From: an uncultured Pelagibacteraceae bacterium
GTDB lineage: Bacteria; Pseudomonadota; Alphaproteobacteria; Pelagibacterales; Pelagibacteraceae
Reading direction: 5' to 3'
Length of the DNA: 64,000 nt
NCBI GenBank assembly: GCA_902531175.1
Contig: CACADE010000003.1
Coordinates: 124,001-188,000, forward strand
Below, one piece after another: positions 1,387 through 63,878 of the stretch; position 1 is the stretch's first letter, and the number at the start of each line of letters is the position of its first letter. The notes beneath the pieces are model-generated. The model did not search any database. It saw only the letters and a list, made by a program, of their open reading frames with translations, and had not been told where the DNA came from. Both the position numbers and the translations under genes were made by a program.

Positions 1387-1900
1387 ATTTTTAGGATTAC
1401 TACTAACATTAATAATAATTTTTATAATCTTGCTCAAGGGATTGAACGTATCGAAAGATTACTCTAACGAGAAATTAAAAAGTAAAATAGATTTTTCACT
1501 TAATGCAAAAAAACTATTTTCTGATGAAATAATTAATATTTCAGACTTATTTGATAAAAATAGTCCTTCTGTAGTAAATATTTGGGCATCTTGGTGTGCA
1601 CCATGTAGAGAAGAGCATCAGTTTTTAATGAAATTAAAAGATATGAACATAAATATAATTGGAATTAATTATAAAGACAGTCCAAAAAATGCGAAAAATT
1701 TTTTAAGCTCACTTGGAAATCCTTATTCAGAAGTTATTACCGATAATGATGGAACAAAATCAATAGAATTCGGAGCTATTGGTGTTCCTGAAACTTTTAT
1801 CATAAGTGGTAAAACAAATGAGATAATTAAAAAGTATATTGGTCCATTGACAAGCGACAATTTAATAGAAATAAAAAATTTATTAAAAAAAAATGCTTAA
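1370..1900 (+). CDS. ccmG: Thiol:disulfide interchange protein CcmG/DsbE
   Basis: A membrane-anchored periplasmic thioredoxin-like protein that reduces the CXXCH cysteines of apocytochrome c. The N-terminus has one hydrophobic anchor (LLLTLIIIFIILLKG), and the thioredoxin fold carries WCAPC with Cys76 and Cys79, followed by the cis-proline region GVPETF. I chose ATG 1370 (176 residues); a GTG five codons upstream at 1355 is possible but lies deeper in ccmF and adds no recognisable sequence. The gene overlaps both neighbours, ccmF by 17 nt and ccmH by 8 nt, which marks one ccmFGH operon. Confidence 0.93.
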   Translation: MSKNIKFLGLLLTLIIIFIILLKGLNVSKDYSNEKLKSKIDFSLNAKKLFSDEIINISDLFDKNSPSVVNIWASWCAPCREEHQFLMKLKDMNINIIGINYKDSPKNAKNFLSSLGNPYSEVITDNDGTKSIEFGAIGVPETFIISGKTNEIIKKYIGPLTSDNLIEIKNLLKKNA

Positions 1901-2252
1901 AATTTTAAAATTAATATTGCTGCTATATTTTAGTTTTAATTTTTCCTATGCGAATGAAATAAATACCAAAGTAGATCAAATTACAAAAAACTTAAGGTGT
2001 TTAATATGCCAAGGTCAATCTGTTTACGACTCTCAGTCCGATTTTGCTATAAGTATGAAGCTTGTTGTAAAAAATAAGATTGATGAAGGTAAAGAAGAAG
2101 AAGAAATATATGATTATTTAAAAAATAAATATGGAGAATGGATTGTTTATGATCCAGAATTAAATCAAAATACAATTTTACTTTGGTTAATACCTTTGAT
2201 TTTATTCATTTTTGGTGGTCTTTTAATTGTTAGAAAAGTATCTATAAAGTAA
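1893..2252 (+). CDS. ccmH: Cytochrome c biogenesis protein CcmH (short CcmL-type)
   Basis: CcmH is a membrane-anchored periplasmic oxidoreductase that works with CcmF and CcmG to present reduced apocytochrome c to the haem lyase. At 119 residues it corresponds to the N-terminal module of E. coli CcmH only. A signal peptide (to about residue 20) is followed by the hallmark LRCLICQGQS with Cys36 and Cys39, a short helical domain, and a C-terminal membrane helix (LLWLIPLILFIFGGLLIV). The TPR-containing CcmI part is not adjacent; a different gene follows. It overlaps the end of ccmG by 8 nt. Confidence 0.93.
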   Translation: MLKILKLILLLYFSFNFSYANEINTKVDQITKNLRCLICQGQSVYDSQSDFAISMKLVVKNKIDEGKEEEEIYDYLKNKYGEWIVYDPELNQNTILLWLIPLILFIFGGLLIVRKVSIK

Positions 2253-2262
2253 CAAAATTTTT

Positions 2263-2823
2263 ATGAAATTAATTATTAAACTTTTAACGATAATAATAAT
2301 TACTACTACTTACTGTCATAGCGAACAAAATGATAATAACTCAGGCACATATTATAAAATTGGTGTTTTTGATCATGTACACGAAACAGATATGCTAGCT
2401 ATTAACAAAAAGAAAATAACTGAAAATAAAATTAATGTAAATTTTCTAGGAGAATTAACTCAAGTTTATGATTTAATGTTATTTTATGATTCAGATGAGT
2501 CATTAACTTTAGATAATCAAAGTAATAAAAAAAATAGAGAAGAATATGCTTTTTATGTTTCAACAGGACTTCAGAAGGAGTTTAATCCAAGTAAAGGATT
2601 TTTTATCGTACCAAGTTTTAGTATTGGTTTATACAATGAATTTGATCAAGGAAAAGACATGGGGTCTCCACTGGAGTTTAAAAGCGAAATAGAGTTTAAT
2701 TTTGCAATTAAAAATAATCTTATGTTTGGTGTTACATTTAATCATATTTCAAATGCTAATATAGGAAGTAAAAATCCAGGTTCTGACTCAATTTTTGTCG
2801 GATTTAAAAGTGAATTAAATTAA
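2263..2823 (+). CDS. PagL-like lipid A 3-O-deacylase (acyloxyacyl hydrolase family)
   Basis: Probable outer-membrane beta-barrel esterase that trims a fatty acid from lipid A. A signal peptide (residues 1-20) precedes about 165 residues of alternating beta-barrel sequence. The C-terminal part has the PagL-type active-site block HISNANIGSKNPGSDS with His161 and Ser163. In characterised PagL the third catalytic residue is a Glu 14 positions after the His; here that position is Asp175. The length (186) fits the family. It starts 10 nt after ccmH and may be read through from that operon, though a functional link to cytochrome maturation is not obvious. The family call rests on the motif and barrel-like sequence, so it is moderately sure. 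Confidence 0.7.
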   Translation: MKLIIKLLTIIIITTTYCHSEQNDNNSGTYYKIGVFDHVHETDMLAINKKKITENKINVNFLGELTQVYDLMLFYDSDESLTLDNQSNKKNREEYAFYVSTGLQKEFNPSKGFFIVPSFSIGLYNEFDQGKDMGSPLEFKSEIEFNFAIKNNLMFGVTFNHISNANIGSKNPGSDSIFVGFKSELN

Positions 2824-2836
2824 TATAATTTTAGTT

Positions 2837-3991
2837 ATGAGATTAAAAGACTGTCATAATTTTTACGATTTTAGAAAGTTAGCAAAGCAAAAGCTTCCAT
2901 CTCCAATATTTCATTATATTGATGGGGCGGCAGATGACGAAATAACTTATGCAAGAAATAGTAGTGCATTTAATGATGTTGACTTAGTTCCAAATGTCTT
3001 AAGAGGTGTTGAAAATGTGGATTTGTCGACAACTATTTTTGGAAAAAAATTAGATTTGCCTTTTTATTGTTCTCCAACAGCTCTGCAAAGGTTATTCCAT
3101 TACGAAGGAGAAAGAGCGGTTGGAAAAGCTGCAAAGAAGTTTAATACGATGTTTGGTGTTTCGGCATTGGCTACAGTTAGTGTTGAGGAAATTTCATCTT
3201 TAATAGACACACCAAAAATGTTTCAATTTTATTTCCATAAAGACAGAGGATTAAATGACTCTTGTTTAGAACGAGCAAAAGCAGCAAAATTTGATGTGAT
3301 GGCTTTAACTGTTGATACGATAACAGGGGGAAATCGTGAAAGAGATTTAAGAACTGGATTTACATCACCTCCAAAATTAACACTTTCGAGTTTGTTTAGT
3401 TTTGCCACAAAACCAATGTGGGGAATAAATTATTTAACCAAAGGAAAATTTGAACTACCACATCTTCAAGATTTTGTTAAAGAAGGAACTGACACAAATA
3501 CTTCAATAGGTAATTATTTTTCTACTATGTTGGATCAATCTATGAACTGGGACGACGCTGAAAAATTGTGCTCTCAGTGGGGTGGCCATTTTGCGCTTAA
3601 GGGAGTTATGAGTGTTGAAGATGCTAAAAGAGCAGTTGATATCGGATGCACTGGTATAATGGTATCAAATCATGGAGGAAGACAACTTGATGGATCTAGA
3701 TCACCTTTCGATCAATTAGCTGAAATTGTTGATGCAGTTGGTGATAAGTTAGATGTTATTTGTGAAGGTGGATTTCAAAGAGGAACTCATATGTTAAAAG
3801 CTTTATCTATGGGTGCAAAAGCTTGTGCTGGTGGAAGATTATATCTTTATGCTTTAGCTGCAGCAGGTCAAGAAGGTGTTGAGAGAGCACTTAACTTATA
3901 TAAAACTGAATTAGTAAGAGACATGAAATTAATGGGCTGCACAAAGATCAGTGATCTTAATCGAAATAATTTAAGATTCCGAAATGCATGA
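2837..3991 (+). CDS. FMN-dependent alpha-hydroxy-acid dehydrogenase (LldD/glycolate oxidase family), copy 1
   Basis: Oxidises an L-2-hydroxy acid (lactate or glycolate type) to the 2-oxo acid using FMN. The 384-residue TIM-barrel protein keeps the family catalytic residues: the N-terminal FHYIDGAADDE tyrosine, QFYFHKD tyrosine, LTVDT aspartate, FALKGV lysine, and SNHGGRQLDG with the base His and Arg. The phosphate-binding region differs from the usual DGGxRRG: it reads CEGGFQRG (Asp to Glu, Arg to Gln), although the following GGRLYLY keeps the Gly-Arg. No membrane-binding segment is obvious. It overlaps the next gene, a close paralogue, by 4 nt (ATGA). The exact substrate cannot be read from sequence. 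Confidence 0.88.
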   Translation: MRLKDCHNFYDFRKLAKQKLPSPIFHYIDGAADDEITYARNSSAFNDVDLVPNVLRGVENVDLSTTIFGKKLDLPFYCSPTALQRLFHYEGERAVGKAAKKFNTMFGVSALATVSVEEISSLIDTPKMFQFYFHKDRGLNDSCLERAKAAKFDVMALTVDTITGGNRERDLRTGFTSPPKLTLSSLFSFATKPMWGINYLTKGKFELPHLQDFVKEGTDTNTSIGNYFSTMLDQSMNWDDAEKLCSQWGGHFALKGVMSVEDAKRAVDIGCTGIMVSNHGGRQLDGSRSPFDQLAEIVDAVGDKLDVICEGGFQRGTHMLKALSMGAKACAGGRLYLYALAAAGQEGVERALNLYKTELVRDMKLMGCTKISDLNRNNLRFRNA

Positions 3992-5139
3992 GCTTAAAGA
4001 ATTGTTATAATTTTGAAGATTTTAGAAAGCTAGCCAAAAAAAAACTTCCAGCTCCAATTTTTCATTACATTGATGGTGGTGCAGATGATGAAACCACTTT
4101 AAAAAGAAATACAAATTCATTTGATGATTGTGACTTAATCCCTAATATTCTTAGAAGCGTAGGAGAACCAGATTTATCAACCACAGTTTTTGGTAGAAAA
4201 ATAGATATGCCAATTTTTTTATCACCTACTGCTATGCAAAGTTTATATCATCCTGATGGAGATAAAGCTTCAGCTAGAGCTGCAGAAAAATTTGGTACCA
4301 TGTATAGTATGTCGACAATGGCTTCATTTTCGATTGAAGAAATTGCTAACATATCAAGTGGACCAAAATTATTTCAACTTTATATCCATAAAGATAAATC
4401 ATTTACTGATGATTTGATTGATAGGTGTAAAAGAGCAAACTTTGACGGTTTATGCTTAACTGTTGATACTTTGGTTGCAGGAAATAGAGAAAGAGATCAC
4501 AGAACTGGTTTTACAACTCCTCCTAAATTCACATTAGAAAGTATAATGAATTTCGCGATGAGACCAGGATGGTTATTCAGATATTTTACGAATAAGAAAT
4601 TTGAACTTGCAAATATTAAACACAAAACTGACAAGGGAACTAACATTACAAAATCCGTAATAGATTATGTTAATGAACAGTATGATCCACAAATGAATTG
4701 GGAAGATGCAGAATACTGTATAAAAAAGTGGGACGGACCTTTTGCCTTGAAGGGTGTAATGTCTGTAGAGGATGCAAAGAGAGCAGTTGATATTGGTTGT
4801 ACAGCAATAATAATATCAAATCATGGAGGAAGACAACTTGATGGATCTAGAACTCCTTTTGATCAACTAAAGGCTATTTCAGATGCTGTGGGTGATAAAC
4901 TTGAGATAATTTTAGATGGAGGTGTTAGACGGGGAACTCACGTTCTCAAGGCTTTAGCTGCAGGTGCTACTGCTTGTAGTTTTGGTAAAGCTTTTTTGTT
5001 CAGTTTAGGAGCAGGTGGCCAACAAGGAGTAGAGAGGCTGCTTCAAAATATGCACGATGAAATTAGAAGAAATATGATCCTTATGGGCTGCAAAAGTGTA
5101 AAAGAGTTAGATAGATCAAAGATAATTTACCGAAATTAA
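3988..5139 (+). CDS. FMN-dependent alpha-hydroxy-acid dehydrogenase (LldD/glycolate oxidase family), copy 2
   Basis: Tandem paralogue of the preceding gene (383 residues) with the same N-terminal signature (FHYIDGGADDE) and all catalytic residues: QLYIHKD, LTVDT, FALKGV and SNHGGRQLDG. In contrast to copy 1 it has a canonical phosphate-binding DGGVRRG, but the usual Gly-Arg before the last helix reads FGKAFLF, with Lys. The two copies share a 38-nt stretch with no mismatch over the catalytic His-Arg loop (3663-3700 and 4814-4851). Start ATG 3988 overlaps the upstream stop. Likely roles are oxidation of lactate, glycolate or a related hydroxy acid feeding the respiratory chain; the two copies may differ in substrate. 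Confidence 0.88.
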   Translation: MSLKNCYNFEDFRKLAKKKLPAPIFHYIDGGADDETTLKRNTNSFDDCDLIPNILRSVGEPDLSTTVFGRKIDMPIFLSPTAMQSLYHPDGDKASARAAEKFGTMYSMSTMASFSIEEIANISSGPKLFQLYIHKDKSFTDDLIDRCKRANFDGLCLTVDTLVAGNRERDHRTGFTTPPKFTLESIMNFAMRPGWLFRYFTNKKFELANIKHKTDKGTNITKSVIDYVNEQYDPQMNWEDAEYCIKKWDGPFALKGVMSVEDAKRAVDIGCTAIIISNHGGRQLDGSRTPFDQLKAISDAVGDKLEIILDGGVRRGTHVLKALAAGATACSFGKAFLFSLGAGGQQGVERLLQNMHDEIRRNMILMGCKSVKELDRSKIIYRN

Positions 5140-6435: not shown

Positions 6436-7809
6436 ATGAACGAAACCGTCCAAGCAGAATTAAAAAAGATATTTAACGGAAGATTTTCTACCTCAGAATC
6501 TACTCGTGCAAATTATGCAAGAGGGGAAGATACCTATAACCCAATATTATCAAAGGCAGTTGTATTTCCAGAAACTAATGAAGAAGTTTCAAAAATTCTA
6601 AAAATTTGTAATGAGCATAAAATTCCAGTGGTTCCATTTGGAACCGGCACATCTCTTGAAGGCCATGTTGTTGGAAATCAAAATGGTATTACGATTTCTT
6701 TAGAAAAAATGAATAAAGTTTTAAGTGTAAATGCTGAGGATTTTGACTGCAGGGTGCAAGCAAATGTAACAAGAAAGCAATTAAATGAATATTTAAGAGA
6801 AGATGGAGTATTTTTTCCAATAGATCCTGGTGCAGATGCTGCACTCGGTGGAATGGCATCTACTTCAGCTTCAGGAACAATGGCAGTGAAATATGGAACA
6901 ATGAGAACAGTTATTTCTGGCTTAACAGTTGTTTTACCAAATGGAGACATAATTAAAACCGGTGCAAGAACTAAAAAAACTTCCGCGGGATATAACTTAA
7001 CTAATTTGTTTATTGGATCTGAGGGAACATTAGGAATTATTACAGAAGTTCAATTAAGACTATCACCAATACCTGAAAGCATAATGAGTGCAGTTTGCTA
7101 TTTTCCAGATTTAGACTCAGCAGTAAAGACAGCGCAAGAAGTTATTCAGTACGGTGTTCCAATTGCAAGAATTGAAATGTTAAACAAAGACCAAATGGAA
7201 ATTAGCATTAAATATTCAAAGCTAGAAAACATCAAAGCATCACCAACTTTATTCTTTGAATTCCATGGTAGTGAACTATCAAATAACGAGTCTATAAAAA
7301 TTGTTGAGGAATTATCAAAAAATAATGGTGGAAGTGATTTTCAATGGGCATCTTCTCCTGAAGAACAAAAAATATTATGGAAAGCAAGGCATGATGTTTA
7401 CTATTCAGTAAAAGCTTTAGGTCATGACATGAAAGTGTATTCTACAGATGTTTGTGTACCAATTTCAAAGTTAGTAGAGTGCATTTCATGGGCGGAAAAA
7501 GAAGTAAAAAAATTAGGTCTAACTGCACCAATGGTTGGTCATGTTGGAGATGGAAATTTTCACTCCATAATATTGTATGATCCTGATGATGAAGAAAAAC
7601 AAAAAAAAATTAGACAGTATAGCGATGATCTAATTAACAAAGCTTTAGAGTTAGAGGGAACAATTACAGGAGAACATGGAATTGGTCTTCAAAAGAAACA
7701 TTACCTATTAAGAGAGCATCCAGATAATTTGCCAGTGATGAAAGCTATTAAAAGAAGTATTGATGTAAACAATATCATGAATCCTGGTAAGGTTTTTGAT
7801 CTAAATTAA
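6436..7809 (+). CDS. FAD-linked oxidase, GlcD / D-lactate dehydrogenase type
   Basis: A 457-residue flavoprotein of the VAO/PCMH family that oxidises a D-2-hydroxy acid (D-lactate or glycolate type). The FAD-binding half contains VPFGTGTSLEGH (residues about 67-78) and a GIITEVQLRL segment; the C-terminal cap has GHVGDGNFH, which supplies metal-binding histidines in D-lactate dehydrogenases, and GEHGIGLQKK near the end. It carries no Fe-S motif and no adjacent GlcE/GlcF partner, so it resembles the single-subunit D-lactate dehydrogenase rather than the three-subunit glycolate oxidase. It is 12 nt from the next gene, a D-2-hydroxyacid dehydrogenase. Confidence 0.85.
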   Translation: MNETVQAELKKIFNGRFSTSESTRANYARGEDTYNPILSKAVVFPETNEEVSKILKICNEHKIPVVPFGTGTSLEGHVVGNQNGITISLEKMNKVLSVNAEDFDCRVQANVTRKQLNEYLREDGVFFPIDPGADAALGGMASTSASGTMAVKYGTMRTVISGLTVVLPNGDIIKTGARTKKTSAGYNLTNLFIGSEGTLGIITEVQLRLSPIPESIMSAVCYFPDLDSAVKTAQEVIQYGVPIARIEMLNKDQMEISIKYSKLENIKASPTLFFEFHGSELSNNESIKIVEELSKNNGGSDFQWASSPEEQKILWKARHDVYYSVKALGHDMKVYSTDVCVPISKLVECISWAEKEVKKLGLTAPMVGHVGDGNFHSIILYDPDDEEKQKKIRQYSDDLINKALELEGTITGEHGIGLQKKHYLLREHPDNLPVMKAIKRSIDVNNIMNPGKVFDLN

Positions 7810-55092: not shown

Positions 55093-56490
55093 ATGTCAGA
55101 AAAATTTGATGTTACAGTAATTGGTGGTGGTCCTGGTGGTTATGTTTGTGCAATTAGATTGTCTCAACTTGGACTTAAAACAGCATGCATAGAGTCTAGA
55201 GGATCTCTAGGAGGGACATGTTTAAATATTGGATGCATCCCATCAAAAAGTTTACTTAATTTATCTGAAAAATTTCACAGTGCTAAAAATTTTGAAAAAA
55301 TTGGAATCGAGACTGGAGAAATAAAACTCAATTTAGATAAAATGATGAAAAATAAAGACAAAGCTGTAACAGTTTTGACTAAAGGAGTTGAATTTTTATT
55401 CAAAAAAAACAAGGTCACTTATTTTAAAGGCAAAGGTTCATTTGAGAACAAGAATTCAATAAAAATTGAAGGCTTGGAAGGCACTAAAATAATTCAAACT
55501 GATAAAACAATAATCAGTACAGGATCAGAGCCAGTTTCATTGCCTGGAGTAGATTTTGATGAAGAGAGAATTCTTTCTTCAACTGGAGCCCTATCTATTC
55601 CCAAACTCCCAAATAAAATGATTGTTGTTGGTGGAGGATATATAGGTTTGGAAATGGGATCAGTTTGGTCAAGACTTGGCACTGAAGTCACAGTCGTTGA
55701 ATTTTTAGATCATATCACGCCTGGAATGGATCGAGATATTTCAAATGAATTTATGAAAATATTAAAGAAACAAGGTATAAAATTCAACCTTAATACTAAA
55801 GTTGATAAAATAACTAAAAACTCTAACGGTGTGACGGTTGAGACTTCACAAAATGATGGCCAAAAAGTTAAACATGATGTTGATGTTGTTTTAATTTCTG
55901 TAGGAAGAAGACCTTATACTAAAAACTTAAATTTAGATAAAGTTGGTGTAAAGTTAGATGAAAAAGGAAGAGTTAAAGTAAATAAAAATTTTGAAACGAA
56001 TGTTAAAAATATTTATGCAATAGGTGATGTTATTGATGGCCCAATGTTAGCCCATAAAGCTGAAGAGGAAGGAATTGCTGTTGCAGAATTAATAGCAGGT
56101 CAATCAGGTCATGTTAATTATGATATTATTCCTGGAGTTGTTTATACATCTCCCGAAGTCGCTTATGTTGGCAAAAGCGAAGAGCAATTAAAAAAAGAAA
56201 ACATAGGGTACAAAATTGGTAAATTTCCTTTTATGGCAAATTCAAGAGCCAAAGCAATTGATGAGCCAGAGGGTTTTGTAAAAATTTTGGCAGACCAATC
56301 AACTGATAAAGTGCTTGGTGTACATATTATTGGTCCTCATGCAGGAGAAATGATAGCTGAGATGGCTGTCGCAATGGAATTTGGAGCTAGTTCTGAAGAT
56401 ATTGCAAGAACATGTCACGCACACCCAACATTTTCTGAAGCTATAAAAGAAGCAGCATTATCAGTAGATAAAAGACAAATTCACTCTTAA
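55093..56490 (+). CDS. lpdA: Dihydrolipoyl dehydrogenase (E3); its 3' end is the apparent insertion site of the downstream island
   Basis: FAD disulfide oxidoreductase (465 residues) regenerating lipoamide. GGGPGGYVCAIRLSQLG (FAD), GGTCLNIGCIPSK with redox Cys43 and Cys48, GGGYIGLEMGSVWSRLG (NAD), and CHAHPTFSEA with the catalytic His. The last codons (KRQIHS-stop) occur again at 61203-61223 at the far end of the accessory island, so integration at this 3' end is inferred; the reading frame here is intact and full length. Confidence 0.97.
   Translation: MSEKFDVTVIGGGPGGYVCAIRLSQLGLKTACIESRGSLGGTCLNIGCIPSKSLLNLSEKFHSAKNFEKIGIETGEIKLNLDKMMKNKDKAVTVLTKGVEFLFKKNKVTYFKGKGSFENKNSIKIEGLEGTKIIQTDKTIISTGSEPVSLPGVDFDEERILSSTGALSIPKLPNKMIVVGGGYIGLEMGSVWSRLGTEVTVVEFLDHITPGMDRDISNEFMKILKKQGIKFNLNTKVDKITKNSNGVTVETSQNDGQKVKHDVDVVLISVGRRPYTKNLNLDKVGVKLDEKGRVKVNKNFETNVKNIYAIGDVIDGPMLAHKAEEEGIAVAELIAGQSGHVNYDIIPGVVYTSPEVAYVGKSEEQLKKENIGYKIGKFPFMANSRAKAIDEPEGFVKILADQSTDKVLGVHIIGPHAGEMIAEMAVAMEFGASSEDIARTCHAHPTFSEAIKEAALSVDKRQIHS
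56470..56490 (+). repeat. Left copy of a 21-bp direct repeat (lpdA 3' end), candidate attL core
   Basis: The last 21 bases of lpdA including its TAA match 61203-61223 at 19 of 21 positions, in the same reading frame and with the same stop. One mismatch changes Arg to Ser and the other is silent (Ile). A target-gene 3' end repeated at both borders of an accessory block is the classical result of site-specific integration. Confidence 0.75.
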
Positions 56491-56494
56491 ACTA

Positions 56495-56517
56495 TAGGAT
56501 TATACAGTAAGATCCTA
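56495..56517 (+). terminator. Hairpin just after lpdA, weak terminator candidate
   Basis: TAGGAT (56495-56500) pairs with ATCCTA (56512-56517) across an 11-nt loop, a few bases after the lpdA stop. No T-run follows directly, so termination is uncertain. If the island inserted here, this sequence belongs to the element rather than to the original operon end. Confidence 0.3.
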
Positions 56518-56620
56518 AATTATCCTTTTATATCAATAAGAATAATCAAATTTTCAAAATAAATAACTCTTTTTAAATTTATTGTGGTTCCTAACTTATT
56601 TTAATTATTAAATCGCGCTT

Positions 56621-56673
56621 CTTGGTACGATCTTGGTACAGAGCCAAAAATTCTCTTGGTACATTCTTGGTAC
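56621..56673 (+). repeat. Four CTTGGTAC repeats in two 11-bp-spaced pairs (left cluster)
   Basis: CTTGGTAC at 56621-56628, 56632-56639, 56655-56662 and 56666-56673. Start spacings are 11, 23 and 11 bp, close to one and two helical turns, as expected for adjacent protein-binding sites on one face of DNA. The second pair is within a 19-bp sequence (56654-56672) repeated exactly at 61119-61137. Confidence 0.9.
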
Positions 56674-56710
56674 GGGTATGTATTTGACTCTCAGTTAGAC
56701 TCATTGTTCA

Positions 56711-56740
56711 GGATTTAGTAATATTGGATTATGAAAAAAC
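56711..56740 (+). promoter_or_regulatory. Duplicated -10/start-codon module, copy 1 (before the protease gene)
   Basis: GGATTTAGTAATATTGGATT followed by ATGAAAAA. A TAATAT -10 candidate (56719-56724) ends 6 bases before the ATG, so the transcript may be leaderless; no Shine-Dalgarno is visible. Nearly the same sequence occurs at 57890-57919. Confidence 0.45.
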
Positions 56741-57867
56741 TTTTAGGCATCATGGTTCTGAGTTTGCTATTGAGTGGAACAACATACGGTGAAGTAATTG
56801 AAATAAACAAATGTCTTAAAAATAGATATTCTTATGAAACAAACTGGTACGATTTAAGTGATGATATAGAAGATATAATCTTTTCATCTAATTTTTCTAC
56901 TGGAGTACTTACTTGGACAAAAATTTATACCGCAAACACAAGTATTAAGAATGTTTTAGGAAAAAAAATGACCAGAGAGACTATTTCTATAGGTATTGAG
57001 ACTTATACAAAAAAAGAGATTATAGCAAGATCCTACACTATTGATAGACCAGCTTCTAGAGAGTTAATGATTAATCCTAATGATAATACAGCTATACATA
57101 GAGAAATTATAATAAATCTGGAAAATAATACTGTCACTGAAATCATAAATCCTGGTGGTAAGATTGTATTTGATACTATTAAGCATAATTGGTTAGATAA
57201 AAGTATTAACGATGAAAGAGTCGTAGTATATCAATGTGATCCAATAGAAAGTGATGGCGGCAGTAACAATTCAGGATCAAGCGGAACAGCTTTTTTTGTT
57301 TCTAATAAAGGGCATCTTTTAACTAATAATCATGTTGTTGAAGGATGTAATATTTCTAAAATAACTTACAACAACAAAGATTATGATGTTAGACTTTTGG
57401 CAACTGACAAAAATCTAGATCTTGCTTTATTAAAAGTTAATTTAAAAAATAAATCATATATTGATTTTGCAAGAGATGAACCTATGAAAATGCAAAAAGT
57501 TTATGTGGGAGGATATCCTTTGGGAAAAGGTTTAAGTGATGATTTAAAAATTTCATCTGGCATTGTAAGTTCATTAAAAGGATTTGAGGATAATTCTAAT
57601 GAAATTCAAATAGATGCAGCGATTAATCCTGGTAATAGTGGGGGACCTATAATTAACGAAGATGGAGAGCTTGTTGCAATTGCTGTATCTGGTTTAGCAA
57701 AAGATCAAACGGAGGGAATCAATTTTGGCATAAAAGCTTCAGCAGCTGAAAGATTTTTAAAATCAAATAATTTTAAAGCAAATAAATCCATATACTCATT
57801 CTCAAAAAAAAATGAACAGTTATTAAGAATATTAGAAGAATCAACTGTTTACACTTTTTGCAATTAA
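56731..57867 (+). CDS. Secreted trypsin-like serine protease with an N-terminal two-cysteine domain
   Basis: A 378-residue exported protein: signal peptide (1-20), an N-terminal domain of about 150 residues bounded by Cys in EINKCLKN and YQCDP, a Ser/Gly linker (SDGGSNNSGSSG), then an HtrA-like protease domain. The triad is His201 in TNNHVVEGC, Asp230 in NLDLALLKV and Ser303 in NPGNSGGP. There is no PDZ domain; only about 40 residues follow the core. The N-terminal domain layout (E-V-x-x-x-x-C near the signal cleavage site, x-C-acidic at the end) resembles two other small exported proteins of this island. The target is unknown. First gene of the island. Confidence 0.88.
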   Translation: MKKLLGIMVLSLLLSGTTYGEVIEINKCLKNRYSYETNWYDLSDDIEDIIFSSNFSTGVLTWTKIYTANTSIKNVLGKKMTRETISIGIETYTKKEIIARSYTIDRPASRELMINPNDNTAIHREIIINLENNTVTEIINPGGKIVFDTIKHNWLDKSINDERVVVYQCDPIESDGGSNNSGSSGTAFFVSNKGHLLTNNHVVEGCNISKITYNNKDYDVRLLATDKNLDLALLKVNLKNKSYIDFARDEPMKMQKVYVGGYPLGKGLSDDLKISSGIVSSLKGFEDNSNEIQIDAAINPGNSGGPIINEDGELVAIAVSGLAKDQTEGINFGIKASAAERFLKSNNFKANKSIYSFSKKNEQLLRILEESTVYTFCN

Positions 57868-57889
57868 AGCTTCGTTGTTTCTAATTTTG

Positions 57890-57919
57890 GGATTTGGTAC
57901 TATTGGATTATGAAAAACT
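57890..57919 (+). promoter_or_regulatory. Duplicated -10/start-codon module, copy 2 (before the membrane-protein gene)
   Basis: GGATTTGGTACTATTGGATT followed by ATGAAAAAC. TACTAT (57898-57903) sits 6 bases before the ATG, again compatible with leaderless transcription. It differs from copy 1 at two positions before the start codon and contains TTTGGTAC, one base short of the island's CTTGGTAC repeat. Confidence 0.45.
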
Positions 57920-58380
57920 TTGATTATAAATTTTTAATTTACTCTATTATTTCAGGGATACTCGCATTTGGATTTTATTATTTAACTAAAATAATTTCTT
58001 TAGGATATGTCGCATTTTGGTTGGCTGTCGGTGCATTAATTAGTAATCTGCTTTTAACATTTAAAATAAACCACTTTGACGTTCACAATAACTTTAGTTT
58101 TAAGAAATTTTTTAATGGAGATTACTCTTTAGCAACTTCTTTCTGGGGTATTTATATAATTTCTTATTTTATATTAATTGGTCCTATAGTTGTTTTTGTT
58201 ATTCCAGTGTTTGCAATTGAAATTATAAGTATAATAATTGGATTAGTATTATTAGTTGGTGTTTATAATTCTGCAAGAAAATATAAAGGAAAGAAATTAT
58301 GGAAAATTCTGACTTACTTATTAATAGCTATTAGAGCTCTTGGATTAATTTATAATTTAACAATTTATTTAAATAGTTAG
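57910..58380 (+). CDS. Small integral-membrane protein of unknown function
   Basis: 156 residues with four or five hydrophobic helices (FLIYSIISGILAFGFYYLTKII; VAFWLAVGALISNLLLTF; a long FILIGPIVVFVIPVFAIEII-type stretch; and a C-terminal helix) linked by short Lys-rich loops. No catalytic or transporter motif is recognised. It is 42 bp after the protease gene and shares its upstream start module. The next gene starts 5 nt after its stop. Confidence 0.75.
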   Translation: MKNFDYKFLIYSIISGILAFGFYYLTKIISLGYVAFWLAVGALISNLLLTFKINHFDVHNNFSFKKFFNGDYSLATSFWGIYIISYFILIGPIVVFVIPVFAIEIISIIIGLVLLVGVYNSARKYKGKKLWKILTYLLIAIRALGLIYNLTIYLNS

Positions 58381-58385
58381 TTACA

Positions 58386-58844
58386 ATGAAAAGACGTATT
58401 AGTGATAAAGAGACCATCAAACTAATACCTAAGAATAAGAGATTAATAGAAGGTATAAATGCAACAGGTGATGATATTATGGGCTTATACTATGTTGTGA
58501 TGCTCTATAACTTATCAATGGCTTTAGAAAAAAAGATATTTAAGAAGCCTACTAAACTAATTAAGTGGTGCCACAATGAGCATCAAAAAACTATCAAATC
58601 TATTAAAAGTCCACACAGTCAATTCGTATGGTCAAATATGAATGATGGAATATTTTATACACTAGACGGCGTACAGGTTACACTTAGACATATTTTAAGG
58701 AGTTCTAATCACAGCAAACCCACCATAGATGCTACTAATAATTTTATTTTTAGTGCTATTGAGAGATTAGAAGAGGGTGGAACTATGGAAGACTCTTGGG
58801 AAACTTTTAATCAGATACAGGATAAATACATACGAATGGAATAA
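58386..58844 (+). CDS. Cytoplasmic protein of unknown function
   Basis: 152 residues, no signal peptide or membrane helix, basic N-terminus (MKRRISDKETIKLIPKNKRL), mixed helical character. Several His, Cys and Trp residues lie centrally (KWCHNEHQKTIK, SPHSQFVWSNMNDG), which could suggest metal binding but match no motif I know. Tightly placed between neighbours: 5 nt after the membrane-protein gene and directly abutting the next start. Confidence 0.65.
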   Translation: MKRRISDKETIKLIPKNKRLIEGINATGDDIMGLYYVVMLYNLSMALEKKIFKKPTKLIKWCHNEHQKTIKSIKSPHSQFVWSNMNDGIFYTLDGVQVTLRHILRSSNHSKPTIDATNNFIFSAIERLEEGGTMEDSWETFNQIQDKYIRME

Positions 58845-59333
58845 ATGAAAAAATTTGGCTTAGTTTTATTAATTATATTTTTATCAAATGCTGCTTTTGC
58901 AGAAGTCGTTGATTTAGCCTGTACGTTTAAAGATAGAAAGTTTTATGCAGGGCTAGATTTTAAAAATTCTAAATGGTTGAATGAAGGTGGATCAGGAACT
59001 TATATGTATGCTACTAAAGAAATAATTTATACAGTTAAACGTAATAGAAATGAAACTGACATAACTCATTTCCTTTGGTCGCTTTCTAGAATAACTGGTG
59101 TAGGTAAAATTAAAGGTTACAAATTAACTGAGGAAGAATTAGATTTAATTGATCAGAAACAATTAGATGATATTTTTAAAAAAGGGATTGGTGATCTAAA
59201 TAAAAAAAGTTTAGTTCCTGCTAGGAATGAATCTGCTGCAAAAACATTTACTGAGTATTTATTGAATAGATCAGGAGATCCTCTCACAACTCAATTTGAA
59301 TGTGAGAAAGCAGAAACAAAATATAAGTTCTAA
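58845..59333 (+). CDS. Small exported protein with two cysteines, unknown function
   Basis: 162 residues with a signal peptide ending FAEVVDLACTF (cleavage near residue 19, Cys soon after) and a C-terminal QFECEKAE. The Cys pair near the two ends of the mature chain suggests a disulfide-clasped domain. The N-terminal EVVDLACTFKDRKFY resembles EVIEINKCLKNRYSY of the island protease. Starts at the base after the preceding stop. Confidence 0.68.
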   Translation: MKKFGLVLLIIFLSNAAFAEVVDLACTFKDRKFYAGLDFKNSKWLNEGGSGTYMYATKEIIYTVKRNRNETDITHFLWSLSRITGVGKIKGYKLTEEELDLIDQKQLDDIFKKGIGDLNKKSLVPARNESAAKTFTEYLLNRSGDPLTTQFECEKAETKYKF

Positions 59334-59401
59334 TGAACTTTATAGACAAATAGTTTAAGATTTGGTCATAATCTAATCAAATTTAAAGGTTATTGTTAAT
59401 T

Positions 59402-59770
59402 ATGACTAGATTAGTTTTTATCTTTGTATTTATAATTTACCCTACAATTGTTACTGCAGACCAAGGAATAAATTTAACATGTATTAACATGCTTTCGAAT
59501 TTGGGTAAAATATATAAACCAGTTAATTACAGACTTGATTCAATGTCATTTGAATATTTCGATGAAAATCAAAATAAAATTATTAGTATCCCAACAAAAA
59601 ATTTAGAGTTTGGAGATGACTATTTTGTTGTAAAACTTAGATATTTTGATTTAGGGTTTCAAAAAATAATATTTGATGGTGATGATGAGCCCACAATTAC
59701 AATGTCTAAGTATGACTTTATTAATAGTAAATTCATTGACCATTATAAGTGTGATATAAGCAAATCATAA
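59402..59770 (+). CDS. Small exported protein with two cysteines, unknown function
   Basis: 122 residues from ATG 59402; an upstream in-frame TTG at 59393 is less likely because the ATG begins a clean signal peptide (MTRLVFIFVFIIYPTIVTA). The mature protein starts DQGINLTCINM and ends HYKCDISKS, the same one-Cys-at-each-end plan as its neighbour and as the N-terminal domain of the protease. The rest is beta-rich with many Asp, Phe and Tyr residues. Two bases before the next start. Confidence 0.65.
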   Translation: MTRLVFIFVFIIYPTIVTADQGINLTCINMLSNLGKIYKPVNYRLDSMSFEYFDENQNKIISIPTKNLEFGDDYFVVKLRYFDLGFQKIIFDGDDEPTITMSKYDFINSKFIDHYKCDISKS

Positions 59771-59772
59771 TC

Positions 59773-60333
59773 GTGTTTAATATATTTAGAAAAAATGAAT
59801 ATGAAATAATTTCTATAAAAATAAAAAATAAAAATTATAAAATTACAGAGAAATTAAATAAGAAAGAATTCAAAAAATTCATAAAGTTAGGTTCGAAAAA
59901 ACAAAAAGAATATTTAAAAAAATTAATTGAAGGAATATCCGGTACAGATTATTTTGCTCAAGTATTTGGTTATACTTTTGGTTTTGAAGATCTTCCACAA
60001 TTTAACTACATATTATCAGTTAGCGAAGATAATTATAATTTAAGTGTTGCTGGAAAAGATGAATATTTTGGATTTAGATGTGATTACCTATTAAGTGAAA
60101 ATGTTTTTTGTTTAAGTTTAAGAACCAAAGAAGAGAATGAAAAAGAACATGTGGAATTAAAAAACATATTGGGACAAGCAAGTAAACAAGTATTAAATGC
60201 TTATGAAAAAAATACCATGAAATACGAAACCACAAAAAAAGCAAAAAAACTTCATGATGAAATGATTTCGACAGATTATCTAAATGAGTTTAGTTATGAC
60301 AAGATGAAGAAAAACCCAATGAGGGTAATATGA
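59773..60333 (+). CDS. Cytoplasmic protein of unknown function (GTG start)
   Basis: 186 residues beginning GTG (MFNIFRKNEYEIISIKIKNKN). Highly charged, Lys/Glu-rich at both ends with a more ordered middle (YFAQVFGYTFGFEDLPQFNYIL). No motif recognised. GTG is accepted because the frame lacks an ATG until much later and the position is directly after the upstream stop; overlaps the next gene by 4 nt. Confidence 0.6.
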   Translation: MFNIFRKNEYEIISIKIKNKNYKITEKLNKKEFKKFIKLGSKKQKEYLKKLIEGISGTDYFAQVFGYTFGFEDLPQFNYILSVSEDNYNLSVAGKDEYFGFRCDYLLSENVFCLSLRTKEENEKEHVELKNILGQASKQVLNAYEKNTMKYETTKKAKKLHDEMISTDYLNEFSYDKMKKNPMRVI

Positions 60334-60608
60334 AAAAAAAAGATTATTCCAAGAGAGATTATAATAAAAAAATCTATCTTACAGGAGACAAGAAGGATTT
60401 GAGAAAATCCTTCCCCAAATGGACAATGATTGCTTGGGCTTTAATTGATTTTGCAATTGGAGTAGGTTTAATTTGGTATGCCATAAATCATATAGAAAAT
60501 ATTTTAATTTATTATTTATTATTTATTTGTGGGCTGTTCTGTTTTATGATGTGTTACGTTCATTTAAGCTATCTTTGGGGTGGAAATATTTGGCGGTCGA
60601 GTAAATAA
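60330..60608 (+). CDS. Small two-helix membrane protein, unknown function
   Basis: 92 residues: a basic hydrophilic N-terminus (about 33 residues, MKKKDYSKRDYNKKIYL), then two hydrophobic helices (IAWALIDFAIGVGLIWYAI and ILIYYLLFICGLFCFMM). Overlaps the upstream gene by 4 nt and the downstream gene by 1 nt, so these three are translationally coupled. Confidence 0.65.
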   Translation: MKKKDYSKRDYNKKIYLTGDKKDLRKSFPKWTMIAWALIDFAIGVGLIWYAINHIENILIYYLLFICGLFCFMMCYVHLSYLWGGNIWRSSK

Positions 60609-61027
60609 TGGTATTTGGATTATTTGAAAAAAAAGAGGCTAAACTCATTAGAGCAGAAGCTATACGTACGCTTGAACATGCCAATATGCTAAGTGACAAA
60701 GATAGAACGAGAGTAGCAAAAAGTTTATTTACCAAAGTAATAAAATGTATTTCTCAAATTGATGGTGTTCCACAAGGTCCAAAGTTAGATAAAATAATGA
60801 AGAAACAATTAAGTGATGCCACTAAACAAAGACAGAAAAATGTTACACACTTAGAGGAAAGTAATCCAAAATGGATCGAAAGTGCATTGTTAGAAAGTTT
60901 CTTGATGATGAATAGCGGAGTATATGGTTCTAAACTTTCACAAGATAGTATCTTAATAGGAAATTGGTGTAGAGAAAATATGTCTCAAAAAGATTTGGAA
61001 AAGTTTGAAAAAAAACTTAGTAAATAA
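60608..61027 (+). CDS. Cytoplasmic helical protein of unknown function
   Basis: 139 residues, mainly helical and charged (MVFGLFEKKEAKLIRAEAIRTL; ending KDLEKFEKKLSK). The N-terminal F-G-L-F-E-K-K-E pattern recalls N-I-F-R-K-N-E of the protein two genes upstream; this may be chance. No known domain. Last intact gene of the island. Confidence 0.62.
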   Translation: MVFGLFEKKEAKLIRAEAIRTLEHANMLSDKDRTRVAKSLFTKVIKCISQIDGVPQGPKLDKIMKKQLSDATKQRQKNVTHLEESNPKWIESALLESFLMMNSGVYGSKLSQDSILIGNWCRENMSQKDLEKFEKKLSK

Positions 61028-61042
61028 TTTTTTTAATCACTT

Positions 61043-61050
61043 GTACCAAG
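61043..61050 (-). repeat. Inverted copy of the CTTGGTAC repeat
   Basis: GTACCAAG on the plus strand reads CTTGGTAC on the minus strand. It lies 16 bp after the last island gene and is the only copy I saw in this orientation. Confidence 0.8.
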
Positions 61051-61118
61051 ATTTAAAATGAAATAAGATTTTAAAATATGTTGAGAATGCTAGAATTTAT
61101 TAATCACTTATTCATATT

Positions 61119-61138
61119 TCTTGGTACATTCTTGGTAT
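61119..61138 (+). repeat. Right cluster of the CTTGGTAC repeat
   Basis: CTTGGTAC at 61120-61127 and the one-mismatch CTTGGTAT at 61131-61138, again spaced 11 bp. Positions 61119-61137 (TCTTGGTACATTCTTGGTA) are identical to 56654-56672, a 19-bp direct repeat about 4.5 kb away. Confidence 0.9.
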
Positions 61139-61223
61139 GGAAAGAAGAGAGTTACGATTGCCTCTAAAAGTGGATTGTATCAATGGTTCTGTGTGTATGT
61201 TAAAAAGTCAAATACACTCTTAA
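61137..61223 (+). pseudogene. Short open frame ending in a copy of the LpdA C-terminus
   Basis: A 28-codon frame starting inside the right repeat cluster and ending KSQIHS-stop, against KRQIHS-stop of LpdA. It is probably not a functional gene but the right-hand attachment region, where a residual lpdA 3' end is preserved in frame. Confidence 0.45.
61203..61223 (+). repeat. Right copy of the 21-bp direct repeat, candidate attR core
   Basis: Matches the lpdA 3' end (56470-56490) at 19 of 21 bases, including the TAA. Beyond the repeat the sequences differ completely on the outer side (taataatta here against actatagga there), as expected at an element border. The native methyltransferase gene ends 4 bp further on. 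Confidence 0.75.
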
Positions 61224-61226
61224 TAA

Positions 61227-61871
61227 TTATTTTTCTACATTCAATAAAGCAAATCTTTTAAATTTTTCTTCAAGTTTTATTTTATTATTATTTGCAAAGT
61301 CTTTTATTGCTTTTTCAACACTTTCAATTTTTGTAATACCTGCAAAATCATCACAAACAATTCTAGAATTATTTTTCATGTTGTCATAAAGTTTCTGTAA
61401 ATCACTTAAAACTGTATCGTAACTATGGCCTCCATCTAAAAATACGAAATCAATTTCACTTAAAGGAACTTTTTCTAAAGTCACCCTTGTGTCTCCTTCT
61501 ATTAGCTCAATATTTTGCGAAAATTTCTTTAAAAAATTTTGAACAGATATCTTTGAATTTAAATTTTCTTTTTTTATGAAATTATAATAGATAGTTTTAA
61601 GTGGATTCGAAAACTTTTGATTTTCAAGAAATTTAGGTTCGATCTCATCTACACTTGATGTTTTAGTTGATCCAAATAAATCTAATCCGTAATATCTAAA
61701 ATCACTACCAAAATTTGTCTTTAATAATTCACATATATTTCTTGATGTAACACCACAAAAAACACCGATTTCTAATACATTTTTTGGCTTGTATTCCTCA
61801 ACTAAACTCAAAAAATTATCCCCATAAGGTTTTTTTAAACCTGATTTTCTCCAGTAATAATTATATTTCAT
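61227..61871 (-). CDS. Class I SAM-dependent methyltransferase
   Basis: 214 residues. The SAM-binding motif I is VLEIGVFCGVTSRNI (about residues 35-49), and FVFLDGGHSYDTVLSDLQ (about 130-147) is the acidic/His post-motif region typical of the Methyltransf_24 group, which methylates small molecules or sugars. Convergent with the island and divergent from priA, whose start is about 50 bp away. It lies just outside the proposed island border. The substrate is unknown. Confidence 0.8.
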   Translation of the reverse strand: MKYNYYWRKSGLKKPYGDNFLSLVEEYKPKNVLEIGVFCGVTSRNICELLKTNFGSDFRYYGLDLFGSTKTSSVDEIEPKFLENQKFSNPLKTIYYNFIKKENLNSKISVQNFLKKFSQNIELIEGDTRVTLEKVPLSEIDFVFLDGGHSYDTVLSDLQKLYDNMKNNSRIVCDDFAGITKIESVEKAIKDFANNNKIKLEEKFKRFALLNVEK

Positions 61872-61922: not shown

Positions 61923-63878
61923 ATGAAATATCCAGTTTTGTTGCCAAATATATTTGATTATCCTTTTACCTATGAAAGTAATATTAAATTAAAAGCAGGA
62001 GATTATGTAAAAGTTCCATTTGGTAAGAAAAATATTATTGGTGTAATTTGGGATTTTTTTGAAGAAAAGAATAATAAGGAATTTAAATTAAAATCTATAA
62101 TTGAAAAAATTCAAATTGAACCACTAAGTAAAAAGACAATGAATTTTCTAAAGTGGTTTTCTAATTACAATCTTGTACCCCTAGGAATGTGTTTAAAACT
62201 ACATTTGATTAATGACGAAAATTTAAAAATAAAAAATGACAGCGATCTATTAAAATATGCTCTATCAAGCAAAAAAGAAAGTTATCAACTTTCTGAAGAG
62301 CAAGATAAGGCTTATAAAGAGTTATCTAAAAATGATAGCAGTTTTAGAGTTCATTTACTGCAAGGTACAACCGGTTCAGGAAAAACAATAGTTTATTTTA
62401 AAGCTATTGAAAAAATTATAAATATAGGATTGCAAGCTCTAATTTTATTACCAGAAATAGGACTAACAAATGAATTTGAAAAAAAATTTAAATCTTATTT
62501 TGGATTTGAAGCTGCAGTTTGGCATTCAAAAGTCAGCCCAAAAAAAAGAAAAATTATATGGAATGGATTATCAGCAGGAAAAATTAAAGTAGTACTTGGA
62601 GCAAGATCATCCTTATTTCTGCCATTCAAAAAATTAGGTTTGATAACTGTAGATGAAGAGCACGATCAATCTTATAAACAAGATGAAGGAATTATCTATA
62701 ATGCTAGAGATATGGCAATATCAAGAGCTAAACACGAAAATATTCCAATAAATTTAGTAACTGCAGTTCCATCAATCGAAACATATGAAAATATTAAAAT
62801 TAAAAAATATAATTACTCAAGATTGCTTAATCGATATAAGGGTGCAAATTTACCTAAACACCATGTTATCGATCTTTATCAAAATCAACTAGCGACCAAA
62901 AGTTCTATATCTCTCAAAACTCTTGAAAAAGTAAAAGAACATTTAAATAAAAAAGATCAAGTTCTCTTTTTCATAAATAGAAGAGGTTTTGCACCCTATG
63001 TTTTATGTAAAAAATGTTTAAATGTTTTTACATGCCCAAGGTGTTCTATAAATTTAGTATTTCACAAAAATAAAAAAATTCTTTTGTGTCATTACTGTGG
63101 ATATAATTCAAAATTAAATAGAGATTGTAAAAAAGGAAATGTTTGTGAGTTTGTATTTAGTGGACCTGGGGTAGAAAAAATTGCAGAGGAAGTTAAAAAC
63201 CTTTTTCCTAATAAAAAAACAATAATTTTTTCTAGCGACACAATGAATAAAGCATCTGGCAAAGATAAATTGAATAAAATTATATCTGGTGAAATAGATA
63301 TTCTTGTAGGCACTCAGTTAATATCAAAAGGATTTCACTTTCCAAAATTGAATTGTATTATTGTATTAGATATTGATTTAACTTCTCAAGGACACGATCT
63401 TAGGAGCACTGAAAAAAATTTACAACTTTACCATCAGTTATCAGGAAGAGCAGGTAGAACCGGCAAACCGGCTAATATTTATTTCCAAACATACAATTTA
63501 AAACCAGAAGTTATAAATCAAATTACAAATGAAGATCCTTTTAAATTTCTAGAAAATGAATTAAATTTAAGAAAGAGGAATAATCTACCACCCTACGAAA
63601 GATTTATCGCTTTAATCTTATCTTCATCAAATGAAAAAAAACTTGATATAGATGCCGTAAAACTTAAAAATATTTTATCAAAATCTATAGATGCAAAAAT
63701 TTTAGGACCAGTAAATGCTCCAATATATAGAATTAATCAAAAATTCAGAAATAGACTATTAATAAGGGCAAAAAAAACATCTAATGTTCAGAAAAAATTG
63801 AAAGATGTATTGAAAGATTTTCAACTCTCCAAAGGAATGAAACTTTCAGTTGATGTTGACCCCATCAGCTTCAATTAG
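61923..63878 (+). CDS. priA: Primosomal protein N' (PriA replication-restart helicase)
   Basis: 3'-5' helicase that reloads the replisome at stalled forks (651 residues, somewhat short for PriA). An N-terminal DNA-binding domain precedes Walker A GTTGSGKT (about residue 147) and the DEEH box TVDEEHDQSYKQDEG; motif III is TAVPSIET where ATPS is usual. The zinc-binding insertion has CKKC, CPRC and CHYC pairs, but the last pair is CKKGNVC, spaced five instead of two. RAGRTGKPANIYFQT is motif VI. Upstream of a probable atpH, as in many Alphaproteobacteria. Confidence 0.95.
   Translation: MKYPVLLPNIFDYPFTYESNIKLKAGDYVKVPFGKKNIIGVIWDFFEEKNNKEFKLKSIIEKIQIEPLSKKTMNFLKWFSNYNLVPLGMCLKLHLINDENLKIKNDSDLLKYALSSKKESYQLSEEQDKAYKELSKNDSSFRVHLLQGTTGSGKTIVYFKAIEKIINIGLQALILLPEIGLTNEFEKKFKSYFGFEAAVWHSKVSPKKRKIIWNGLSAGKIKVVLGARSSLFLPFKKLGLITVDEEHDQSYKQDEGIIYNARDMAISRAKHENIPINLVTAVPSIETYENIKIKKYNYSRLLNRYKGANLPKHHVIDLYQNQLATKSSISLKTLEKVKEHLNKKDQVLFFINRRGFAPYVLCKKCLNVFTCPRCSINLVFHKNKKILLCHYCGYNSKLNRDCKKGNVCEFVFSGPGVEKIAEEVKNLFPNKKTIIFSSDTMNKASGKDKLNKIISGEIDILVGTQLISKGFHFPKLNCIIVLDIDLTSQGHDLRSTEKNLQLYHQLSGRAGRTGKPANIYFQTYNLKPEVINQITNEDPFKFLENELNLRKRNNLPPYERFIALILSSSNEKKLDIDAVKLKNILSKSIDAKILGPVNAPIYRINQKFRNRLLIRAKKTSNVQKKLKDVLKDFQLSKGMKLSVDVDPISFN

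Follow-up and report, generated by a model that had tools for sequence, protein, structure and literature searches.

An integrated element of 4,733 bp lies at the 3' end of lpdA in the genome of an uncultured Pelagibacteraceae bacterium (GenBank assembly GCA_902531175.1; genome G000 in our comparisons), a member of SAR11, which are very abundant ocean bacteria. The element was analysed within 64,000 nucleotides of contig CACADE010000003.1, and this whole stretch is referred to as the window. The element is a precise site-specific insertion after the lpdA stop codon and eight cargo open reading frames (ORFs) were counted in it. As an earlier, preliminary description made from the sequence alone had already stated, the interval holds no recombinase gene, whether judged by its ORFs or by comparison with Pfam and PHROGs.

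Boundaries of the Insertion

The target gene, the element, and the two cores are placed as follows:

55093..56490, plus strand: lpdA (dihydrolipoamide dehydrogenase; name from the preliminary description and by eye); its terminal codons serve as attB, the target in the chromosome, and are unchanged
56470..56490, plus strand: left core (attL), the host-derived lpdA tail, the same as the tail in the empty relatives G011, G018, G039, and G027
56491..61223, unstranded: integrated element, 4,733 bp; the joined flanks align with G011 without a gap over 2,895 bp
61203..61223, plus strand: right core (attR), element-borne, ending AGTCAAATACACTCTTAA; the same core is found in elements whose host lpdA tail is GAGCAATACACTC

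The repeat of the lpdA tail (56470–56490) at 61203–61223, from which the preliminary description had started, is real: the copies match in 19 of 21 positions, and the next-best matches to the tail on both strands of the 64-kb window, at 7691 and 17315, reach only 16/21. The left boundary needs a small adjustment, because lpdA retains its own codons; the insertion is therefore 56491–61223, with the right copy as the core that belongs to the element. Strand exchange would occur within the last nine shared bases of the left core, CACTCTTAA.

An lpdA with at least 98% protein identity to that of the window (98–100%) occurs in six of the 61 genomes of a first genus sample, the window's included. 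In four of the five sister genomes the lpdA stop runs directly into the right flank of the window, and the joined flanks of the window align with them without a gap over 2,895 bp (99.6% identity to G011, 99.4% to G018, 97.7% to G039, and 98.8% to G027). In the fifth, G010, the site is empty too, but the neighboring methyltransferase gene is missing. Across 54 loci the distance from lpdA to priA is 17–33 bp in 28 (28 genomes) and longer in 15 (two of them from one genome); no distance could be obtained for the remaining 11, in several cases because their genome is represented by a longer locus instead. A comparison of these intervals, which the preliminary description had proposed as a check, yielded both empty sites in four sister genomes and, in a genome nearly identical to the window's, different cargo inserted at the same base. 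The counter-case it had named, an island-free locus with the 21-bp copy, did not turn up, the 28 short intervals measuring only 17–33 bp, and a close copy of the lpdA tail is also absent from the empty relative G011 (in a scan of eight longer intervals that lay outside G018, G039, and G027). A direct core repeat, an empty site equal to the joined flanks, and arm-type sites on both sides, as found here, are the marks of an insertion of the tyrosine-integrase type.

The right flank of the element contains two host genes:

61227..61871, minus strand: host methyltransferase gene, also in the empty relatives and outside the element
61923..63878, plus strand: priA, the conserved right neighbor (name from the preliminary description and by eye)

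The methyltransferase gene stands between lpdA and priA in the window and in four close relatives and is missing in the next relative, G010.

Layout of the Attachment Sites

Repeated short sites, which an integrase would be expected to bind, flank the cargo at both ends of the element:

56621..56673, plus strand: four arm-type sites CTTGGTAC (starts 56621, 56632, 56655, and 56666; spacing 11, 23, 11)
56680..56689, minus strand: inner inverted core copy, GTATTTGACT as against AGTCAAATAC in attR
61043..61050, minus strand: reversed arm-like site GTACCAAG, within a stretch common to G036, G006, and G465a
61120..61138, plus strand: two right-end arm-type sites, CTTGGTAC (61120) and CTTGGTAT (61131), spacing 11, then GGAAAGA

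The left array sits 131–183 bp past the lpdA stop and the right sites 65–83 bp ahead of the right core. The preliminary description had likened this arrangement of four and two arms about a core to an attP, a comparison that gains support from two genomes in which an arm array of this kind adjoins an integrase gene at the lpdA site (see below). It should be noted that a single 8-mer CTTGGTAC is not rare, since 29 copies occur in the 1.3-Mb genome against 25 of the reversed control. The idea that an integrase fragment is encoded before the right core was dropped, as the frames are not conserved across the aligned right ends (by eye); a 46-aa ORF in this place has no Pfam match.

Leader and Cargo of the Window Element

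Between the left array and the first cargo gene there is one further conserved feature:

56695..56733, plus strand: promoter-like leader, composed of TTAGAC, 18 bases, TAATAT, 6 bases, and the ATG of the first cargo gene; the sole strict match on both strands of the window

The general pattern (TTAGAC, 16–19 bases, TANTNT, 5–6 bases, start codon) has nine occurrences when both strands of sixteen related stretches (0.25 Mb) are read, all in the left ends of elements. It was recognized in 13 of 20 arrays, and with G710, in which it lies further downstream, the leader is found in 14 of the 18 integrase-less arrays and in neither of the two integrase-bearing ones; a copy in G643 with an altered start codon (by eye) was excluded from the count, and G042, G574, and L095 are without it. 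In a consensus promoter scan the element showed no surplus of matches (18, with 31.3 expected), and the leader was not among them; the case for it rests on its conservation. The leader is possibly the promoter of a leaderless transcript.

The cargo genes all lie on the same strand:

56731..57867, plus strand: cargo 1, trypsin-like serine protease, 378 aa (PF13365, 2.7e-29; phrog_9683 protease, 1.9e-12)
57910..58380, plus strand: cargo 2, 156 aa, membrane-like; 31% identity over 87 aa to a protein in G042 and G574
58386..58844, plus strand: cargo 3, 152 aa; no family match
58845..59333, plus strand: cargo 4, 162 aa, secreted-looking by eye; no family match
59402..59770, plus strand: cargo 5, 122 aa, by eye secreted-looking; a single weak match (0.0085), function unknown
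59773..60333, plus strand: cargo 6, 186 aa; no family above the curated cut-off
60330..60608, plus strand: cargo 7, 92 aa, membrane-like by eye; no family above the curated cut-off
60608..61027, plus strand: cargo 8, 139 aa; no family above the curated cut-off

Cargo 1 has a relative in a 407-aa trypsin-like protease that is cargo of G482 (43% over 196 aa). For cargo 2–8 there is no Pfam family above cut-off, and PHROGs adds two weak matches only, among them that of cargo 2 to a phage membrane protein family (0.0006); for cargo 5 an alternative TTG start at 59393 is also open. None of the eight proteins matches a replication or packaging family in Pfam, PADLOC, or PHROGs.

Related Elements in Other Pelagibacter Genomes

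In 399 genomes of the genus, a strict form of the left array (up to 3 mismatches) was found in 11 and a general form (four CTTGG at 0, 11, 34, and 45, up to 1 mismatch) in 17, with no match of the reversed control in either scan. One of the 17 genomes, G465, has two arrays. In all 17 genomes lpdA stands directly upstream of the array (16 by tblastn, G430 by eye). Among the 84,980 species of a wider collection, the exact array was found at 11 loci, each with a Pelagibacteraceae title; from their isolate names we take these to be single-cell genomes. Loci L095 and L098 come from this collection and lie outside the 399-genome sample. Where both ends are visible, the elements measure 987–8,951 bp from the lpdA stop to the stop in the right core; those in G600, G582, G501, and L095 are truncated where the contig or locus stops.

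One element with different cargo is that in G643 (L140, 1771–7203). The G643 genome is almost identical to that of the window around lpdA, and its element, likewise without an integrase, carries a type III restriction-modification system composed of a methyltransferase (Mod) and a restriction subunit (Res). Cargo of other elements includes, for example, a 1,531-aa helicase of the superfamily 1 type in G006 that resembles the Mokosh and PDC-S37 models (a truncated relative is found in G582); a prepilin peptidase, a secretion ATPase, and pilin-like proteins in G501; a beta-lactamase-family match below cut-off in G718; a PrsW protease together with a sub-threshold ligand-gated-channel match in G042 (and, by similarity, in G574); and small proteins, some of them secreted-looking by eye, in G710. 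The elements in G465, G651, G535 (L141), and L098 encode between one and five proteins whose N-termini resemble those of type IV pilins, a call that rests on Pfam for one G465 protein and on similarity for the others. The N-termini of these proteins are alike and the remainders differ (L087/G465, 1708–4222; L141; L088/G651; L098). At L095 (4463–8000) the element encodes a large coiled-coil-like protein that extends past the end of the locus; it has no copy of the usual leader, and its right end is not visible.

The same interval also holds other insertions. Between lpdA and priA of L047 (G002) and L058 (G019) there are sugar-modification clusters (aminotransferase-, epimerase-, and glycosyltransferase-like by eye) without att features. 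Just before priA, L044 (G032) and L045 (G035) have a sequence resembling the core, GCACTCTTAA or GCGCTCTTAA, together with an insert of about 3.2 kb in which a left array is not recognizable; these insertions perhaps represent a more distant class.

Integrase-Bearing Elements at lpdA

The preliminary description had suggested looking for SAR11 integrases beside such repeats at an lpdA 3' end, and these do exist: in G036 and G404 the arm array adjoins an integrase gene, which in G036 begins about 100 bases past the last arm. With the 509-aa integrase of G036 as query, the 399 genomes (the same sample as in the array scans, judged by size and handle numbers) yielded G036 itself, G404 (60% identity), and G548 (27%, E 7e-37). 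The last has an integrase relative without an array and is not counted as an lpdA element. Among the 17 array genomes the integrase was found in two only. R315, K446-x-x-R449, H471, and Y481 are invariant in the three sequences and presumably form the catalytic set of a tyrosine integrase. The elements in G036 and G404 are about 9 kb long and have PHROG matches to an integrase, a DNA polymerase, and a terminase small subunit; for G404 the comparison covered part of the element. In G036, all 14 called ORFs of at least 45 aa were compared with PHROGs; nine had no match and may include an unknown structural protein, and besides the terminase small subunit no structural family was found. Both elements are read as phage satellites on the strength of these matches. 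The terminase small subunit of G036 has matches in three of 50,697 phage records (the Pelagibacter phages HTVC023P and HTVC027P, and 023Pt_psg01; 27–30% identity, a lead only), and a G036-class satellite may spread in the capsids of a helper pelagiphage. The polymerase of G036 was rejected as a pointer to a helper; it names none, 929 phage records all showing less than 60% identity (23–26% among the matches listed).

When PF00589 was searched in 22 genomes (the 17 with arrays and five others), the matches comprised a resident recombinase (15 of the 22), the two integrases, and two further frames, one of 425 aa in G404 and one of 464 aa in G039, an empty relative. The genome of the window (97% complete) has a single match, which is on another contig; it is a 317-aa recombinase gene beside a glycosyltransferase-like gene (L039, G000:C2).

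A profile of the integrase gave matches in three of 317 genomes of the family: G289, G223, and G185. In L144 (G289) and L145 (G223) the related integrases stand in satellite-like gene runs at another site, near genes resembling rRNA methyltransferase and tuf, without a CTTGG array, and are not counted as lpdA elements. In IMG/VR the G036 integrase alone and a three-row profile gave 7 and 23 pattern matches, none of them a relative, and right-end patterns and the circle junction gave none; integrase and right end had no match in phage records. The sole array match in IMG/VR, L062, was judged to be due to chance, as it lies inside an ORF of a gut-phage-like contig (14 kb seen).

Ends, Cores, and Arms

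The right ends of elements were compared over about 91 nt and set against the identity of the host priA. Between G404 and G643 the right end is 100% identical at 71% in priA, between G036 and G465a 99% at 76%, and between G036 and the window 92% at 69%; the converse is seen between G404 and G430 (69% at 95%). The ends track the class of the element rather than the host.

The same holds for the core. The window and G643 have the same host background (flanks 99.2 and 97.9% identical) and the same insertion base and differ in core and cargo, and for this reason the attR core is element-borne. In G465, in which two elements stand in tandem, the junction consists of a core followed by a second complete array.

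Arm types differ between elements (CTTGGCAC in G465b, CTTGGTAA in G718, CTTGGTTC in G404), and within an element the letters of left and right arms agree at 0.81 against 0.69 when shuffled (P 1e-4; 12 bounded elements, with a shuffle that ignores relatedness). The arms of G651 are mixed, one type on the left and another on the right, and G651 looks like a recombinant of a tandem of pilin cassettes. The inner copy fits the core of its own element in 9.06 of 10 positions, compared with 8.23 for shuffled cores (P 1.5e-4; 16 elements, relatedness not controlled). It is exact in 10 elements, 9/10 in G710, 8 in G042 and G574, and 7 in G404 and G482.

Proposed Origin and Mobility of the Elements

From the comparisons above we consider it likely that 56491–61223 is a non-autonomous integrative gene cassette inserted at lpdA, its enzyme most likely coming in trans from a satellite-type tyrosine integrase. 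Such a cassette would carry an attP-like site (core, four plus two arms, and the inverted inner core copy), a leader, and cargo, with no recombinase of its own. It would enter lpdA by site-specific exchange inside the last nine bases of the gene and leave the LpdA protein unchanged. The tyrosine integrase would be supplied by a satellite-like element using the same site, of the G036 class for the window and of the G404 class for some other cassettes, and satellites with a DNA polymerase and a terminase small subunit might travel in the capsids of helper pelagiphages. Binding and action of the integrase, excision, packaging, and expression from the leader are all inferred. The preliminary description had left the choice between mobilization in trans, by a phage or another element, and a remnant. 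Its recombinase-made origin without an integrase is supported, and no phage was found that could have given the integrase directly. Supply by a satellite fits better than decay, because no relics of integrase, polymerase, or terminase were found in the integrase-less elements and because the leader, present in 14 of 18 arrays, is in none of the integrase-bearing elements. Decay from a different ancestor is a less likely alternative.

That the elements are remnants, i.e., decayed satellites or prophages (cis-mobilizable elements, CIMEs, in the strict sense) whose ends are kept by inertia and which have picked up host genes and become immobile, is unlikely. Such decay, together with tandem accretion, is described for integrative and conjugative elements (ICEs) and integrative and mobilizable elements (IMEs) in passages of PMC5704250, and it would agree with the finding that an integrase of the G036/G404 kind was not found in 15 of the 17 array genomes, that some elements are as diverged as their surroundings, and that G651 has different arms left and right, as expected from recombination within a tandem. 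Against this, neither the 12 integrase-less loci nor five later ones contain a match to the integrase, polymerase, or terminase of G036/G404; the matches to these elements that do occur are weak and confined to short end ORFs (left-end of G404 in G042; right-end in G000, G006, G465, and G643). Moreover, arm letters agree between the ends, most arrays share a leader missing from integrase-bearing elements, the ends of several pairs are far more alike than their hosts, and the window insertion is recent, its flanks being 99.6% identical to an empty relative.

It is very improbable that the resident SAR11 tyrosine recombinase (a frame of about 325 aa) moves the elements in the manner of Xer recombinases exploited by other elements. 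A 324–325-aa frame is indeed found in 12 of the first 17 genomes searched, and one of 298–325 aa in three of five array genomes added later, and the resident enzyme is the sole PF00589 match in the window genome; but it occurs in genomes with elements (G006, G430) as well as without (G011, G018, G012) and thus does not track them, and in both integrase-bearing lpdA elements the arm array adjoins the integrase gene. Short arm sites arrayed next to an integrase gene suit an arm-binding integrase rather than a Xer site. Still less credible is an exchange of the whole lpdA–priA interval between SAR11 genomes by homologous recombination with the repeats being incidental, although the interval does contain other insertions without att features, such as the sugar-modification genes of G002 and G019. 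The boundaries of the window insertion are exact to a single base, the right core being that of the element and the left core that of the host, near-identical hosts have different attR cores with flanks that resume at the same base, and the array is specific (control 0). Varying boundaries, which would favor homologous recombination, were not seen in the bounded cases.

Several observations speak against the trans-mobilized cassette proposed above and should be considered. Among the 57 genomes that reach 90% completeness, the array is confined to that of the window; the other 16 array genomes are 64–89% complete and the integrase is rare, so its absence is not proof. For the ACAATAC core class (G042, G574, and G482) and for the CTTGGCAC arms no partner element with an integrase came to light, and searches of IMG/VR and of phage records turned up neither the ends nor the circle junction nor the integrase. 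Both integrases fall below the PF00589 cut-off (25 and 20 versus 27.1 bits), even if PHROGs calls both integrases. The inner copy of G643 fits its own core poorly (6/10), and relatedness is ignored by both the arm-letter and the inner-copy shuffles. Some elements look long resident: G042 and G574 are 89–91% identical across the elements and the adjoining ends of lpdA and priA, at an unbroken level, and G465 and G651 are 95–97% identical outside the variable pilin part. Finally, insertions without att features in G002, G019, G031, G005, and G012 occupy the same interval, and therefore the lpdA–priA interval varies by other routes too.

The cassette interpretation can be extended, tentatively and with slightly less than even confidence, to a SAR11 cassette economy at one port, in which dedicated integrase-less cassettes, with matched arms, an inner core copy, and often a leader of their own whose -10-like box precedes the first start codon by 5–6 bases, are inserted, stacked, and exchanged at the lpdA end by phage-satellite integrases. 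If so, the cassettes would be passengers of a phage parasite in an integron-like system built from lambda-type attachment sites, and the port would supply phage defence as well as surface proteins (pilins). The uptake of new surface and defence genes into the small, streamlined genomes of SAR11 is poorly understood. With a defined port, recognizable ends, and candidate enzymes, the exchange of pilin-like genes and restriction systems at one site becomes testable. The findings also suggest that a distinct family of recombinase-less elements may exist around phage satellites and would be overlooked by any search for integrase genes.

Comparison with Known Systems

Among the matches listed from the open-licence PMC literature there are no reports of lpdA elements or of pelagiphage satellites, and the main text of a paper on hypervariable regions of SAR11 (PMC2217521) has no word starting with "lpd".

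The closest likeness is to CIMEs, which are without an integrase, have attL and attR matching those of integrase-bearing elements, and accrete in tandem at one target gene (passages of PMC5704250). In the window element, too, matching attL and attR are retained and no integrase or transfer-gene family is among the matches of the eight cargo proteins. CIMEs are, however, defined in the same passages as decay products of ICEs or IMEs, whereas the integrase-bearing relatives here resemble phage satellites rather than ICEs, 14 of 18 arrays have a leader that these relatives lack, and the cargo varies between elements. Phage-inducible chromosomal islands (PICIs) and the minimalist islands related to them (PICMIs), as outlined in parts of their literature, are matched by the elements of G036 and G404, where an integrase gene is combined with a gene for replication and one for a terminase small subunit in about 9 kb; for G036 the PICI-like gene set was found with no structural genes recognized. 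The window element differs in having no integrase, replication, or packaging gene of its own.

Tycheposons are likewise cargo-carrying integrative elements of streamlined aquatic bacteria, but in the account given in sections of PMC10872708 they reside at tRNA genes and have a tyrosine recombinase, whereas the window element resides at lpdA and has none. Dependence on a recombinase encoded elsewhere is shared with mobile units such as integron cassettes in clusters of attC sites lacking integron integrases (CALINs) and miniature inverted-repeat transposable elements (MITEs), in which small cargo units may stand in tandem, and some helper-dependent elements need another such element (both in portions of PMC11389934). 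The lpdA elements differ from CALIN and integron cassettes in their direct cores of 18–21 bp with separate arm sites, in their target at the end of lpdA, and in that many of them have a promoter-like leader of their own.

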